This document shows positions 3,249-8,649 of a stretch of DNA of 64,000 bases, piece after piece. Source of the DNA: Armatimonadota bacterium. Lineage in GTDB: Bacteria > Armatimonadota > Zipacnadia > UBA1398 > JAKPQA01. Numbering within the stretch: position 1 is the stretch's first letter; each line of letters starts with the position of its first letter. The translations under genes and the position numbers were made by a program. The notes under the pieces were generated by a model. It worked only from the letters and a program-made list of their open reading frames with translations, did no database searches and had not been told where the DNA came from. The stretch is taken from contig JAKPQA010000192.1 of the NCBI GenBank assembly GCA_029547025.1, positions 1 through 64,000 on the forward strand. The letters run 5' to 3'.

Positions 3249-5750
3249 ATGCCCCTCGCGATGCTTCTCGCATGGGTGCCGGTCTCGCTTGTCCAGCAGG
3301 TTGCGCCGGAAGACGTCTTCGTGGAGGCCGAGTCCGCGGCCAGCCACACATTCAGCAACGTGGCGGACTTCCCCGGCATCGTGAGCGGCGGCCGCATCCT
3401 CCGCTTGTGGGAGGGCAACGACCCGCCGGCCGACGGGTACTGGGCGGACTTGCCGTTCGCCGTGGCGGGCCAGGGGGACTACCACGTCTGGCTGGCGGCT
3501 TCGCTTCCGGGATCCACGAGCCCCTTCTGGTGGCGTGTCGACGACGGCCCCTGGGGCCATGTCACCGACGACATGCTTCTCGAGGTCGGCGAGACCTTCG
3601 GCGTGTCTGGCGTGATGGCGTGGATCGAGCTCACCACACAGCGCCTGGCTGCGGGCGGCCACAGGCTCCGGGTGCGGGTGGACGAGCGCCGCCCCGGACT
3701 CGAGAAGGCCCATCTGCTCTACCTCGACGCGATGCTCGTCACGCCGCGGGATATCATGCCTCGCGGCCTTGTGACGCCGGCGGACTTGCCGAACCTGGCG
3801 CCCCGGCCCGCTCCGCCGGTGCCCGTTCACCGAGCGGGCACACCAGGCGAGCCGATGATGCTCGGCACATCGGTGATGGGCCACAGCCAGAACCTGCTCG
3901 TGAAGTCCATCGGGTTCTCGCTGTCGCAGACCGACTCGGATCACCTGACGGTCAACGAGACCGCGCCCGGTGTGTGGGACTGGGCTGCGGCCGATGCCGG
4001 GCTCGAGGCCTGTCGCAAGGCCGGGCTTCGCTGGCAGTACTTCCCCCACTGGCACTGGCCGCCCGAGTGGTACCGCGCCACCGATCGGTTCGTGCCGTGC
4101 ACGGGCTTGCGCAGCGGCCGGAAGCTGGCCTGCATGTCCCTCTGGAGCCCGGATATCCTACCGTGGTTCGACCACTGCTACACGGCGATGGCCGAGCACT
4201 ACGGGTCTGGGGCTGATCCGGTCGCCGCCATCTACGTCGGCGTCCACGGCGACTTCGGCGAGACCATCTTCCCCATGGGCTTCCACCCGGTCGAGCGGGA
4301 ACGCTTCGGCCCCGAGGGCACGGGCGTGGCGGACTTCTGGTGTGCCGCTGAGCCGGACCGGGCCGCCTTCCGTGTCTGGGCGAGCGAACGGTACGAGTCG
4401 CTCGAGGCCCTGAACCAGGCTTGGGGCACCGACTTCGCCGGTTGGGATGTCCTGGACTATCCGCCCGCCGCCTACAGCAACGAGGCCGACGTGAAGTCCA
4501 CACCGGAGGTGCGCCGGCGCTGGCTCGACTTCATCGACTGGTATTTCGGCAGCATGACACAGTTCACGGCCGACGTATGCCGCATCGCCCGACGCCACTT
4601 CCCCGAGGCCATGCTGGTTCTGCCGGTGGGCGGCGGCGCCGAGTCCTTGGTGTATGGGCAGGACAACACGGCGCTACCCAAGATCGCCGCCGAACTCGGC
4701 GTCCACATCCGGTCGACCCACGGCGGCTTCCAGCCCTTCGCTGACAACTACAGTACGATCAACCGGCGCATCGCCACGGCCTCCAAGTTCTACGGCGCGC
4801 CCTTCTGGACCGAGCCCCCGGGCTCGATCTCGGCCACGCTCGAGGTCAGCCGGATCGCCGAGTCCATCGCCTGTGCCAGTTGGGGCTTCTGGGACTGGGG
4901 CAGCAACCCGGTGGCGGCCGCCGACGTGTTCCGCGAGTATGCCGCCTTCTTCACTCGGGAGAAGCCCGTCGTCGACGTAGCGCTCCTCTTCCCCACCACC
5001 AACTACCGGCTCAACTGGCTCAACGCCCACTCGCCGAAGCTCGCGAAGATGGGCGCCGAGCTGCGCGACGTGATGGACTATGACATCATCGACGAGATGC
5101 TCATCGCCGACGGCGCCCTCGACCGCTACCGGGTGCTGGCATGGCTCGAAGGCGACTGGGTCGAGGCATCGACGCTGCGGAAGCTGGCCGACTGGATTGA
5201 GGCAGGCGGCGTCCTGTTCCGGGTCGGTGCCGAGCCGATGCAGGACGTCTCCGGCGATGCGGCGCTCGCCCGCGAGTTCCTCGGTGTCACCGACGCCGCA
5301 CCCGTGCCGGGCGGGGGGTCCGGGCCGCTCGTCGTCGCCGACTTCGCCCGGCACCTGAAGGGCACGCCCGAGCCGGTGGTCGCGGCCACGGCGAGCCCGC
5401 TGGCCGAGGGAGCGCAGATGCTGGCGCAGGCCGGCGGCGCACCCGCGGCCTGGGCTGTGCCGCGCGGGCGCGGCTGGGTGATCGTCTGGGCCGGTATGTG
5501 CAACGATGACCGCGAACGCCGTACGGCCTCCGAGCTCTTGCGGGACGTGGTCTACAACCTGTCGGCGCTCGACGGGACCAAGGCAGACGCCCTGGAGCTC
5601 GATACGGCCTGGGATAGCGTCTACACCACGCTCCTGGCCAATGGCGAGGCGGTGGTCTACAACGACTCGACGGAGCCCCGCGCGGTGACCATCGGCGGCC
5701 AGACCCTCGACCTTCCGCCGAAGTCGCTGCGGAGCGCGCTGGCGAAGTAG
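3249..5750 (+). CDS. Secreted multidomain glycoside hydrolase (clan A, GH42/GH14-like)
   Basis: An 833-residue protein with a short hydrophobic N-terminus suggestive of export. Residues about 20-165 are a beta-sandwich carbohydrate-binding-like module that resembles the N-terminus of the giant GH2-type protein at 53.1-58.2 kb. A TIM barrel follows; two glutamates sit where clan-A enzymes have them, E338 in HGDFGETIF and E522 in FWTEPPG, and I infer these to be acid/base and nucleophile. The C-terminal third resembles the trimerisation and beta domains of GH42 enzymes (VALLFPTTNYRLNWLN, then LADWIEAGGVLFRVG). It starts 36 nt after the GH35 gene and is probably cotranscribed. Family assignment beyond clan A is uncertain, and the substrate is not readable from sequence. 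Confidence 0.72.
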   Translation: MPLAMLLAWVPVSLVQQVAPEDVFVEAESAASHTFSNVADFPGIVSGGRILRLWEGNDPPADGYWADLPFAVAGQGDYHVWLAASLPGSTSPFWWRVDDGPWGHVTDDMLLEVGETFGVSGVMAWIELTTQRLAAGGHRLRVRVDERRPGLEKAHLLYLDAMLVTPRDIMPRGLVTPADLPNLAPRPAPPVPVHRAGTPGEPMMLGTSVMGHSQNLLVKSIGFSLSQTDSDHLTVNETAPGVWDWAAADAGLEACRKAGLRWQYFPHWHWPPEWYRATDRFVPCTGLRSGRKLACMSLWSPDILPWFDHCYTAMAEHYGSGADPVAAIYVGVHGDFGETIFPMGFHPVERERFGPEGTGVADFWCAAEPDRAAFRVWASERYESLEALNQAWGTDFAGWDVLDYPPAAYSNEADVKSTPEVRRRWLDFIDWYFGSMTQFTADVCRIARRHFPEAMLVLPVGGGAESLVYGQDNTALPKIAAELGVHIRSTHGGFQPFADNYSTINRRIATASKFYGAPFWTEPPGSISATLEVSRIAESIACASWGFWDWGSNPVAAADVFREYAAFFTREKPVVDVALLFPTTNYRLNWLNAHSPKLAKMGAELRDVMDYDIIDEMLIADGALDRYRVLAWLEGDWVEASTLRKLADWIEAGGVLFRVGAEPMQDVSGDAALAREFLGVTDAAPVPGGGSGPLVVADFARHLKGTPEPVVAATASPLAEGAQMLAQAGGAPAAWAVPRGRGWVIVWAGMCNDDRERRTASELLRDVVYNLSALDGTKADALELDTAWDSVYTTLLANGEAVVYNDSTEPRAVTIGGQTLDLPPKSLRSALAK

Positions 5751-5777: not shown

Positions 5778-5852
5778 TGGTCTTGCGGAGGGGCCAGATA
5801 GGGGGAACCGTGGGCCGGTAGGCCGATGGTGGGACCCTAATCGGCCCGGGTC
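5778..5852 (+). repeat. Structured intergenic repeat, copy A
   Basis: Begins GGTCTTGCGGAGGGGCC, continues to GGGGGAACC, then a variable stem (GGGCC-GGTA-GGCC core), then GGTGGGACCCTAATCGGC and CCGGGTC. It shares the flanking conserved blocks with copies B, C and D at 8.1-8.5 kb but has a different stem sequence. It sits between the secreted hydrolase and the methyltransferase-like gene. Confidence 0.75.
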
Positions 5853-5895
5853 GGCCGTCAGGCCGACGGATCGACCCAAGGAGGCAACCAACACC

Positions 5896-6744
5896 ATGTG
5901 GACCACCGAGCAGCTCCTGGCCGAAGCCGTCGGCGGGCGCGTCGGCAGGCGCTTCGTCGGCATGGACGAAATCGACGGCATGGAGGCCGATGCGCTGAAG
6001 CGCGCCGCCGAGCAGGCCCTGGCGCGGCCCCAAGCCTCCGAGTTCGATCCCGGCGCCCGGCCGCTCAGCCGGCGGCTCTTGGCGGCCCAGTGGACGCTGG
6101 TGCTCGATAGCGTCGGCCTGCCCGCGGAGCCGAGAGTGCTCGAGCTGTGCGCGGGCGGCAGCGATCCCGTGGTCGTGGCGCTGGATGTGCTCTACGGCAG
6201 CCGGGCCACCTATGCGACCATCAACCTCAACCGGAAGCTCGCTGCCGAGCTGATGGACCGCGCCCGGGGCCTCGACCTGCAGGTCCGGCTCATCGAGGAC
6301 GATGCCCAGAACCTGCTGACGCACTTCCCCAGGGGCAGCTTCGACGCCGTCTGCTTCCACCACGCTGTCAACGACATCCTCCAGACGGCCGTGGCGGCCA
6401 AGCACGGCCTCGACACCCGGGATCTTGACTGGTGGCCCAACGAGCGGCAGATGATCGAGTGGATGGCCGTCGAGCACGAGGCTCACGGGCTCAGCGAAGT
6501 CGGCCTTCCGGAGCTGCGAGCCATCTTGGAGTCGGCCGCCACCGCGGTGAAGCCCGGCGGCACCCTCTGCTTCGACCACTGGACGTGGCACTACCACCTG
6601 GGGCTGGACTGGTTCCCCGGGGCGCTGTTCAACCAGCTCATCCCGATGGCCCGCGAGGTGGCCTTGTCGCTCACCACGCCGCTGGTCGAGGTGACCCCCG
6701 CCGGCCTCGACCGGCAGTGGTGGATGGTGCTGAGGAAGCCGTAG
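5896..6744 (+). CDS. Class I SAM-dependent methyltransferase-like protein
   Basis: A 282-residue protein with a Rossmann-like methyltransferase core. VLELCAGGSDP (about residues 78-88) corresponds to the SAM-binding motif I, IEDDAQNLL and FDAVCFHHAVNDI to motifs II-IV, and VKPGGTLCFDHW to the post-motif region. The C-terminal aromatic stretch (HWTWHYHLGLDWFPG) is unusual. The start has AGGAGG 11 nt upstream. It lies after a repeat copy, 145 nt behind the hydrolase genes, so cotranscription with them is possible but not clear. I cannot name the substrate. Confidence 0.6.
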   Translation: MWTTEQLLAEAVGGRVGRRFVGMDEIDGMEADALKRAAEQALARPQASEFDPGARPLSRRLLAAQWTLVLDSVGLPAEPRVLELCAGGSDPVVVALDVLYGSRATYATINLNRKLAAELMDRARGLDLQVRLIEDDAQNLLTHFPRGSFDAVCFHHAVNDILQTAVAAKHGLDTRDLDWWPNERQMIEWMAVEHEAHGLSEVGLPELRAILESAATAVKPGGTLCFDHWTWHYHLGLDWFPGALFNQLIPMAREVALSLTTPLVEVTPAGLDRQWWMVLRKP

Positions 6745-7216
6745 GCCGCAAGCCGGCGTCACGGCGCCATCGGTCGGGCGTGAGCTATGTCGGAGCCGCG
6801 ACGGTGTTGCCTGTGAGAGTGGTGAACGCCACCTCATAGCCGCGCCAGCCGTGCCATCTGTGCCGCTGCAACGCGGATGAGTCGGGCCTGCAGCTCACCG
6901 ATGGCCCCGATCACGAGTTCAACCCGTGCTGGCTGCCCGATAGCGGGATCGCGTTCGTGTCCACGCGGGCGAAGCGCTTCGTGCTGTGCAACGTCACGCC
7001 CGTGGCGACGCTCCACCGGATGGAGCGCGACGGGAGCGGCATCGCGGGCTCTCGGCGAAATCTGGCGTTCTGGCGGCGCCGTACCTGGCTCCACGCGTGC
7101 GTGAAGCGTCTCGCTTGGAACCGACGAGAAACCGACCGGGACGGTCGGCCTACGCGGCGGCGTAGCATCCAACCTGGGCCCATGGCGGGTCCACCGTCTG
7201 GGCCCGCCCGCTCCCC
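6745..7216. other. Intergenic region with gene remnant
   Basis: This 472-nt gap lies between the methyltransferase-like gene and the convergent isomerase-like gene. Apart from the propeller fragment I see only GC-rich sequence without a supported gene or strong hairpin. Confidence 0.5.
6840..7060 (+). pseudogene. Fragment of a PD40/TolB-type beta-propeller protein (HzsA-like)
   Basis: An open stretch of about 70 codons reads CHLCRCNADESGLQLTDG, then FNPCWLPDSGIAFVSTR, then LHRMERDGSGI. These are the hallmarks of WD40-like PD40 repeats as found in the middle domain of hydrazine-synthase-alpha-like and cytochrome-associated propellers. A stop codon (6837-6839) precedes it and the coding similarity ends after the DGSGI segment. 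It has no start or RBS of its own, so it is a remnant of a much longer gene. Confidence 0.55.
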
Positions 7217-8104
7217 CTACCGCCCCAGCCCCGCCACGAACTCGACGAAGCGACAGGCGCAGCGGTCGAGGTTCTCGAGCGAGCCGCCGCCGCGCAGCGG
7301 GGAGCACATCTCGTAGCCCACGAAGCCCTCGTAGCCACCGTCGGCCAGCACGTGCAGGAAGCGCTTGTAGTCGATGAAGCCCTCGCCCATGGGCACGGCA
7401 AGCAGCGTGTCGGTCTGTCGCTCGTAGTTCACCAGTGGCGGCACATAGCGGAAGCGCCGCAGCCGCAAGTAGTCAGCCACAGTGGTGTGGCGGAGCATCG
7501 GCAGCACGGCACGAACCGCCTCGGCTGGGTCATCGCCGTGCAGCGCCGGCGCCCACGCGTCGAAGGCTGCCCCGCAGTTCGGCCGGTCGACCTCCACCAG
7601 GAGTTCGACCATGGCCTCGCTGGCCACGGCCACATCGTGGTGGTTCTGGACAGCCAGCGAGACACGGTACTCGGCCACGCGATCCGCGCACTCGCGAATG
7701 GCCGTCACGCAGCGCGACCATGCGGCGGGGTAGGTGAGGGAATGCGACTCGAACGCCGTGAAGACACGCACCACGTCGCAGCCGAGACCGCGGGCGATCC
7801 GGCCCAGCTCGCCAACGTGGTGGATCTGCATCTCCACCGTCGGCACATCCGGATGCTCCGCGTCGGCCGTGAAGTTGGTGTAGCCAGCCAGACAGGCGCA
7901 AACGAGCCCGCGCGCCTCCAGCCGCTCGCGGAGTGCGGCGATGCGCTCTGCTGTCATGTCCAGCACCGACGCGTGCGGCCGCTTCGCCATGAGCATGATA
8001 CCGTCGAATCCAAGGTCGGCCGCCCGGTCGACAATGGCATCGAGATCGAGGGCGGCCTGCCCCCAGAAGCCGGCATACGAGACGGTGTGCAGACAGGTCT
8101 TCAC
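7217..8104 (-). CDS. Sugar phosphate isomerase/epimerase-like TIM barrel
   Basis: A 295-residue member of the xylose-isomerase-like TIM-barrel (AP endonuclease family 2) superfamily. The predicted strands run from DLGFDGIML near the start through VVRVFTAF and LAVQNHHD to YEGFVGYEM. Metal-ligand candidates include the E in AFESH, the H pair in NHHDV, D in AAFDAWAP and E in GYEM. Family members usually isomerise or epimerise keto sugars or inositol derivatives. An upstream in-frame extension exists, but the GTG at 8104 has AGGGG eight nt upstream and begins the conserved fold. It lies downstream of the GH38 gene on the same strand, separated by the repeat block. Substrate unknown. Confidence 0.75.
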   Translation of the reverse strand: MKTCLHTVSYAGFWGQAALDLDAIVDRAADLGFDGIMLMAKRPHASVLDMTAERIAALRERLEARGLVCACLAGYTNFTADAEHPDVPTVEMQIHHVGELGRIARGLGCDVVRVFTAFESHSLTYPAAWSRCVTAIRECADRVAEYRVSLAVQNHHDVAVASEAMVELLVEVDRPNCGAAFDAWAPALHGDDPAEAVRAVLPMLRHTTVADYLRLRRFRYVPPLVNYERQTDTLLAVPMGEGFIDYKRFLHVLADGGYEGFVGYEMCSPLRGGGSLENLDRCACRFVEFVAGLGR

Positions 8105-8164
8105 CGCATTCGCCCCTATCCCGCCAGTAGCGATAGCCCAAAGCCTCGCACAGCCACCAGACCC

Positions 8165-8237
8165 GGTTGCGGGGGGGGGCCACATGGGGAGGGCCGTCCG
8201 GCGAAGCCGGATGGTGGGCCCCCAATGGGCTCTGGTC
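8165..8237 (+). repeat. Structured intergenic repeat, copy B
   Basis: Contains GGTTGCGG, a G-run, CCACATGGGGAGGGCC, then a near-perfect stem CCGTCCGGC-GAA-GCCGGATGG (one G-U wobble), then GGGCCCCCAATGGGC and CTCTGGTC. The conserved blocks match copies A and D although the stem sequence differs. Confidence 0.75.
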
Positions 8238-8311
8238 AGCCGCAGGCCAACCGTCCAGGACCATCAGTGGCCTCCGACTGCGCTCTCCGGCCCATCCAGG
8301 GCCGTCGGGCG

Positions 8312-8364
8312 CCGGGCCGATTAGGGACCCACCAGCCGCCCGTGGCGGCTGGTTCCCCCCATCA
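8312..8364 (-). repeat. Structured intergenic repeat, copy C (inverted)
   Basis: Read on the minus strand: TGATGGGGGGAACC, stem AGCCGCC-ACG-GGCGGCT, then GGTGGGTCCCTAATCGGC and CCGG. The stem is perfect and extends into the flanking ACC/GGT, giving 10 bp. The right-hand block is almost identical to that of copy A. Confidence 0.75.
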
Positions 8365-8403
8365 GGCATTGGCGGTAACCTAGGGCTCCCGTGGCCCATC
8401 CGC

Positions 8404-8474
8404 CTGGTTGCGGAGGGGCGCCATGGGGGGAACCACGCGTCTCCCAGCGTGGTGGGCCCCCAACGCGCCCGGTC
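8404..8474 (+). repeat. Structured intergenic repeat, copy D
   Basis: Reads CTGGTTGCGGAGGGGC, GCCATGGGGGGAACC, stem ACCACGC with GCGTGGT around an 8-nt loop, then GGGCCCCCAACGCGCC and CGGTC. It has the same architecture as A, B and C with another stem sequence. Confidence 0.75.
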
Positions 8475-8533
8475 CGCACGCCCCAACCTCGGGCCGGTCA
8501 GGGGCCCCGCGCCCCCTGGGCGCACCCCTGTGC

Positions 8534-8552
8534 GGCCCTCCGCAAGACCAGG
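8534..8552 (-). repeat. Truncated repeat copy E
   Basis: On the minus strand CCTGGTCTTGCGGAGGGCC matches the left end of copy A (CCTGGTCTTGCGGAGGGGCC) and then diverges. Only the left block is preserved. Confidence 0.6.
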
Positions 8553-8617
8553 CGGGCGTTCCGCGCGACCTTCGCGAGACCCAGCCGCCCGGCCAAGGGC
8601 GCTATGTTACCGCCAAT

Positions 8618-8649
8618 GCCCCCATCAGGCCCCTCCGCAAGACCGGGCG
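8618..8649 (-). repeat. Truncated repeat copy F
   Basis: On the minus strand CCGGTCTTGCGGAGGGGCC is followed by TGATGGGGGC, matching the left block of the family; it then enters the 15-bp inverted-repeat arm instead of the variable stem. Confidence 0.6.

Follow-up and report, generated by a model that had tools for sequence, protein, structure and literature searches.

The stretch analysed here (the window) comprises 64,000 nucleotides and corresponds to contig 39 of the genome of an Armatimonadota bacterium, placed by kinship in a Zipacnadia-like class, a 6.3-Mb assembly in 369 contigs that we label G000. Between its open reading frames (ORFs) the window carries copies of a hairpin-forming repeat, designated A, B, C, D and F, which very probably are repetitive extragenic palindromic (REP) elements of a system built around a REP-associated tyrosine transposase (RAYT). 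Copy A lies downstream of the stop codon of an ORF (3249-5750) and upstream of a methyltransferase-like gene whose ATG is at 5896, copies B and C face each other as an inverted pair, and copy C is interrupted by a miniature inverted-repeat transposable element (MITE), bounded by terminal inverted repeats (TIRs), whose cargo is two further hairpins, D in forward and F in reverse orientation (Table 1).

Table 1. Probable REP elements and the inserted MITE in the window. R1 is the covariance model built on copies of the genome.
Feature	Position	Strand	Sequence and context	Score
Probable REP copy A	5783..5849	+	tag TTGCGGAG; lower stem GGGCC..ATAGGG/CCCTAAT..GGCCC; upper stem CCGTGGGCC/GGCCGATGG	R1 73.3 bits, E 3.4e-12; fold z -3.7
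Probable REP copy B	8167..8234	+	upper stem CCGTCCGGC/GCCGGATGG	R1 60.9 bits; fold
Probable REP copy C, main part	8316..8366	-	upper stem CCAGCCGCC/GGCGGCTGG	R1 45.8 bits despite cut
Target duplication CCCCCATCAGG, left copy	8356..8366		11 bp	
MITE	8367..8618		252 bp; TIRs CATTGGCGGTAAC / GTTACCGCCAATG; inserted into copy C	
Probable REP copy D	8408..8472	+	upper stem ACCACGC/GCGTGGT; MITE cargo	R1 77.3 bits
Probable REP copy F	8489..8545	-	upper stem GCGCCC/GGGCGC; antisense MITE cargo (L025:1582-1638)	R1 48.4 bits
Target duplication CCCCCATCAGG, right copy	8619..8629		11 bp	
Severed 5' part of copy C	8619..8644	-	GGTCTTGCGGAGGGGCC...; the inner 11 bp form the right-hand target duplication	

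A first-pass annotation of this DNA had described copies A to D as sharing common boxes and as having stems that differ between copies but remain paired, and both descriptions proved right. RNAfold gives one nested hairpin shape for all four, with shuffle z-scores of -3.7, -2.4, -3.7 and -3.0 for A, B, C and D, respectively, copy C being folded across the empty site; the upper stem of copy A holds one mismatch. In a covariance model search of the whole genome, the E-values were 4e-13 for D, 3e-12 for A, 2e-9 for B and 4e-6 for C. Two supposed truncated copies, 'E' and 'F', had to be reinterpreted. The former is the 5' end of copy C, split off by insertion of the MITE with its 11-bp duplication, and the latter is a full antisense hairpin of a different stem type that shares the inserted element with D. 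The leader of the methyltransferase-like gene consists in large part of copy A (5783-5895), which ends shortly before AAGGAGG and the ATG and could affect the expression of that gene.

The short boxes do not stand out in the GC-rich window, where TTGCGGAGGGGC with up to two mismatches has 15 matches, with 13.5 expected and no excess over shuffles. With counts at chance level, genome-wide and structure-based tests were needed. Across the whole genome, the same box with up to one mismatch has 257 matches, compared with 90 for the reversed pattern, and covariance model R1, built on 16 copies, locates the hairpin at at least 150 places in the 6.3 Mb, a short palindrome in the high copy number characteristic of REP systems. 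The first-pass annotation had named stems that fail to pair, or restriction to this locus, as observations that would speak against its proposal; genome-wide, the copies still pair and are spread well beyond one locus. Members of the family were found with model R2 in 29 of the 46 genomes of the class. When 84,980 species genomes were searched for the outer boxes, with the interior left open, 95 stretches matched, and the best 80 of these are nearly all in metagenome-assembled genomes (MAGs) labelled Armatimonadota, Zipacnadia or WS1, two genomes being labelled 'bacterium' or 'Bacillota' only. The common form of the hairpin is GGAG-GGGCCG(A/C)ATRGGG - upper hairpin - GGG(N) - CCCYATCCGGCCC. 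Its lower stem usually pairs GGGCCG(A/C)ATRGGG with CCCYATCCGGCCC, leaving an A or C unpaired opposite a C. The 5' GGAG tag, this mismatched lower stem and the purine-rich bulge are conserved, and only the upper stem is free.

Among 61 distinct copies, 97.6% of pair cells hold standard pairs, whereas shuffling gives 79.6% and sliding the partners by one to three columns gives 61% or less. Two-sided changes affect 11 of the 16 pairs, including all seven of the upper stem (7/7). So that pairing would not be selected for, a second sample was gathered with the outer boxes as the sole criterion; its 78 distinct interiors have a mean fold z of -2.5, and exchanging halves between copies weakens pairing, the mean interior energy going from -11.8 to -6.8 kcal/mol. 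Within the bacterium's own genome, the frame ACC-xxx-CGnAG-xxx-GGT carries AGC/GCT, ATC/GAT, GGC/GCC, AGA/TCT and AGG/CCT. The stem variants of this genome are real compensatory substitutions that go beyond swaps of modules. The lower stem covaries as well: the ATG that follows the purine run is one of its alleles (ATGGGG as opposed to ATAGGG), the pair in question being G-C in 29 copies and A-U in 27. The suggestion that the purine run and ATG might give rise to short peptides was therefore abandoned, since about half of the copies have ATA in place of the 'start codon', and the interiors between the boxes vary in both sequence and length.

Covariation does not by itself imply selection. Template switching during replication is known to perfect quasi-palindromes, and pairing could then reflect mutation bias alone. 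The stems of some copies do differ by whole blocks, and template-switch mutation may indeed supply stem variants. Nevertheless, such a process should also repair the mismatch and the bulge of the lower stem. Among 132 exact copies collected with any base allowed at the mismatch position of either strand, the 3' base is always C, and the opposite base is A or C in 126, T in one and a pairing G in five; the mismatch is thus kept in about 127 of 132 (counted by eye), and the asymmetric GGG bulge is retained in most copies. As a palindrome-perfecting process would have removed the mismatch, its maintenance favours recognition over pure template-switch mutation. Mutation bias also leaves the copy number and the association with RAYT genes unexplained, and we give it very little chance of being the whole explanation.

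That association is specific to one lineage of transposases. Y1_Tnp (PF01797) genes occur in 34 of the 46 class genomes, and a hairpin scoring at least 30 bits lies within 300 bp at 12 of the 96 Y1_Tnp loci, compared with 0.43 expected from the genome-wide density (Poisson P 6e-14). A sense copy precedes the gene and an antisense copy follows it at G010:C75, G039:C297, G033:C170 and G022:C561. The inverted bracket is exact at G010:C75, with hairpins approximately 20 bp upstream of the ATG and 12 bp downstream of the stop. A RAYT-family gene flanked by copies of the hairpin is the arrangement of a REPtron. In a tree of 70 Y1 proteins (26 of the 96 genes were omitted, 23 because no P-D-H motif was found in the frame taken and three because they were too short), all 21 proteins flanked by strong or weak hits fall into one clade of 27 with a support of 95/96, so that flanked members make up 21/27 inside the clade and 0/43 elsewhere. 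Of the six clade members that lack a hit, at least four have GGAG-tagged palindromes with other stems beside the gene, e.g. TTCGGAGCGGCCGGGCTTCAGCCCGGCCG, which indicates that the tag and the RAYT clade go together while the stems turn over. The identity of the proteins is consistent with this picture. Two of those tested, the RAYTs of G010 and G030, score above the cut-off of NCBIfam NF047646, 'REP-associated tyrosine transposase', and the best match of the former in the PDB is Escherichia coli TnpA-REP (4er8, E 8.6e-10). The HuH motif of the clade proteins reads PDHVH or PDHLH, with PEHVH and PQHLH in two; the match to the sequence of the TnpA-REP structure covers the motif, and the catalytic Tyr is putative.

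The assignment of the repeats to a REP/RAYT system draws on pairing and covariation, RAYT genes flanked in a single clade, the identity of the proteins, the kept mismatch and the fit to known recognition rules. Several observations nevertheless weigh against it. The GTAG or GT[AG]G expected at the foot of a REP hairpin is absent, the fixed tetranucleotide being GGAG; given the degenerate or other tags on record (GYRG, CGTC, CnGA), our claim is that of a variant and not of a canonical GTAG REP. Hairpins are lacking in seven class genomes, whether these have dozens of Y1_Tnp genes or not a single one, and the association therefore follows the clade rather than the genome. Of the 12 strong RAYT loci, four (G010:C75, G000:C246, G016:C313 and G031:C28) had contributed copies to model R2, although the remaining eight are still far above expectation, and the density used for the Poisson expectation was calculated from no more than 117 scored candidates in each genome, a cap that affects the bacterium's own genome, G007 and G039. 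Binding, cleavage and movement of the hairpin by RAYT are extrapolated from RAYT biochemistry. Finally, the RAYT of the hairpin clade in the bacterium's own genome, C246, is probably dead, judging from its sequence in a fragmented MAG: it has an in-frame TAG, and its HuH motif is PDHLY instead of PDHxH, the second His being replaced by Tyr.

C246 is one of two Y1 genes in this genome. It was placed by BLAST, outside the tree, and is nearest to the hairpin clade (best matches at 39-48% identity); its twelve best matches are all flanked by strong or weak hairpins, and a hairpin copy adjoins the gene itself. The other gene, C157 (G000:C157:24587-24907; L175:1000-1950), is an intact RAYT situated among different REPs with GTAG-type ends (palindrome CCTGTAGCCGAGGCTTCAGCCTCG), which indicates that the genome has two REP systems.

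The element that splits copy C is a MITE: it has TIRs, a target duplication of fixed length and many copies, and it contains no transposase gene. The TIR pattern has 107 matches in the genome and one for the reversed control. Most of the 25 TIR-to-TIR spans measure 222-405 bp, and about half of them have an 11-bp duplication, perfect or with one mismatch. Class-mates have at most four TIR matches per genome, which indicates that the burst of the MITE is peculiar to this genome. The D-type hairpin, the type carried in the MITE, is present in 89 nearly identical copies (pattern count), and as the matching RAYT is probably dead, these copies appear to have multiplied mainly through the MITE. One might then regard the hairpins as mere internal parts of the MITE that spread solely with it. 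The number of D-type copies and the clear 11-bp duplications are in line with that idea, which holds for D and F alone. Applied to the entire family it is contradicted: as many as about 100 hairpins are present in other genomes that have no more than four TIR matches, and copies A, B and C lack such TIRs. Moreover, about a quarter of 80 distinct MITE junctions are in hairpins, mostly at the same lower-stem spot, e.g. between GGAGGGGCCGAATAGGGG and CATTGG, and junctions inside pre-existing hairpins imply that the hairpin is older than the MITE. We find spread by the MITE alone scarcely credible.

The transposase of the MITE was not found. An IS4-family derivative was considered as its parent and dropped, there being no PF01609 match in the bacterium's own genome. 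A related MITE family with the TIR CATAGGCGCTAAC is 318 bp long in this genome (L116:306-623) and 112 bp long in G039 (C282, C67, C501; L365-L368). In G039, this TIR bounds the 112-bp MITE at three of four places and an N-containing stretch at the fourth, and no transposase was found between the TIRs at these places.

Could the covariation instead reflect selection on transcripts, the hairpin being a structured non-coding RNA or an mRNA element involved in leader function, processing or stability? The strong covariation itself, the presence of G-U pairs and the position of copy A in the 5' leader of a gene, just upstream of the ribosome-binding site, are what one would expect of such an element. 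However, a search of the window against Rfam gave no match above the gathering score, copies occur in both orientations, as inverted pairs and in tandem arrays, hairpins bracket RAYT genes, and some copies lie inside a transposon-like element. A transcript-level function for the family is therefore highly unlikely in our view, although some copies may have a secondary RNA role, as E. coli REPs do. The first-pass annotation had read the compensatory change as implying selection on a folded RNA or a DNA cruciform, or else a template-copied mobile element, and had matched the repeat to no structured RNA class. Compensatory change and the mobile or DNA-hairpin nature were borne out, and nothing that we found requires an RNA role. 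The lack of a matching RNA class agrees with the Rfam result; the repeat does belong, very probably, to a known kind of element, REPs with a RAYT HuH endonuclease. More generally, an intergenic repeat should not be taken for an RNA gene merely because it shows strong compensatory change. Integron attC-like sites, considered as a further candidate, were set aside because the partner gene encodes a Y1 HuH protein.

How would a REP/RAYT system generate this pattern? For the E. coli RAYT, the GTAG tag matters, as do the mismatch bulge and some lower-stem positions, and the upper half is described as non-specific structure (PMC8266576). By analogy, the Armatimonadota enzyme would bind the extruded single-stranded hairpin, reading the tag, lower stem and bulge, and would cut and rejoin it, with the result that REPs spread between genes. 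The upper half would only be required to be helical, and compensatory changes would accumulate there. Many copies in the present genome appear to have spread instead as cargo of the TIR-bounded MITE, which often inserts into REP lower stems. We lean, if only slightly, towards a more specific scenario, that of a GGAG-tagged REP superfamily with its own Armatimonadota RAYT clade. The enzyme would read the tag, the mismatched lower clamp and the bulge and leave the upper hairpin free, making each genome a natural library of interchangeable upper stems. After the death of the RAYT in this lineage, a MITE that preys on and carries REPs would have taken over.

The hairpins resemble the REPs and BIMEs (bacterial interspersed mosaic elements) or REPINs (REP doublets forming hairpins) of long-stem RAYTs, such as those of E. 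coli TnpA-REP (group 2 / subclass 2.2) and the enterobacterial REPs, in their 5' tetranucleotide tag and long hairpin with a mismatch or bulge. They also share with the E. coli and enterobacterial elements a high intergenic copy number, inverted doublets and a RAYT gene flanked by copies. The lower stem GCCG.AT/AT.CGGC even recalls the enterobacterial GTAGGCCGGATAAG..ATCCGGC, a likeness noticed after the fact that serves as a lead only. The Armatimonadota hairpins differ from these REPs in having GGAG instead of GTAG/GTGG as the tag, a longer, two-tier stem whose upper half changes freely within one genome, and a separate RAYT clade. Short tagged palindromes with complementary stem variants, occurring as singles, dimers and clusters, are also known from the GTAG- and CGTC-tagged superfamilies (PMC3733652) and the CnGA-footed structures of class 3 TnpA-Y1 (PMC6006769), but 'GGAG' appears in neither paper, and neither covers the Armatimonadota lineage. 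ISPpu9 of Pseudomonas putida (PMC8450116) is likewise a TIR-bounded element often inserted in REPs. The element described here enters at a fixed lower-stem position and, unlike ISPpu9, is a non-autonomous MITE whose own cargo is two REPs of the family it targets.

The GGAG tag was absent from the REP literature searched for it (including PMC3733652, PMC6006769 and PMC8266576), and a search joining REPs with Armatimonadota returned nothing, most subscription papers being outside its reach. REP/RAYT is a known kind of system, to which, as far as the literature searched shows, a GGAG tag, a stem in two tiers and the present lineage are new. Our analysis would bring into these systems a lineage on which the search yielded no REP paper, and add GGAG to their tags. 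The class-wide hairpins, with fixed lower and freely covarying upper parts, amount to a natural experiment on which features a RAYT reads, and their pattern agrees with the finding in E. coli that the upper half is merely structural. In turn, a MITE that both targets and carries REPs suggests how REPs might keep multiplying once their own enzyme is lost.

Contigs of G000 often start or stop within MITE or REP repeats (e.g. C36, C47, C52, C58, C65). These repeats probably fragment the assembly, in which case the numbers of copies given here are minimum values. Hairpins are arrayed in tandem, one about every 159 bp, at G000:C134:72-919 and likewise in C94, C176, C177, C203 and C278. In two class genomes, divergent hairpin pairs are separated by a near-constant spacer of 37-41 bp (L212, L250, L252, L255, L259), as expected if the doublet (REPIN) spreads as a unit.

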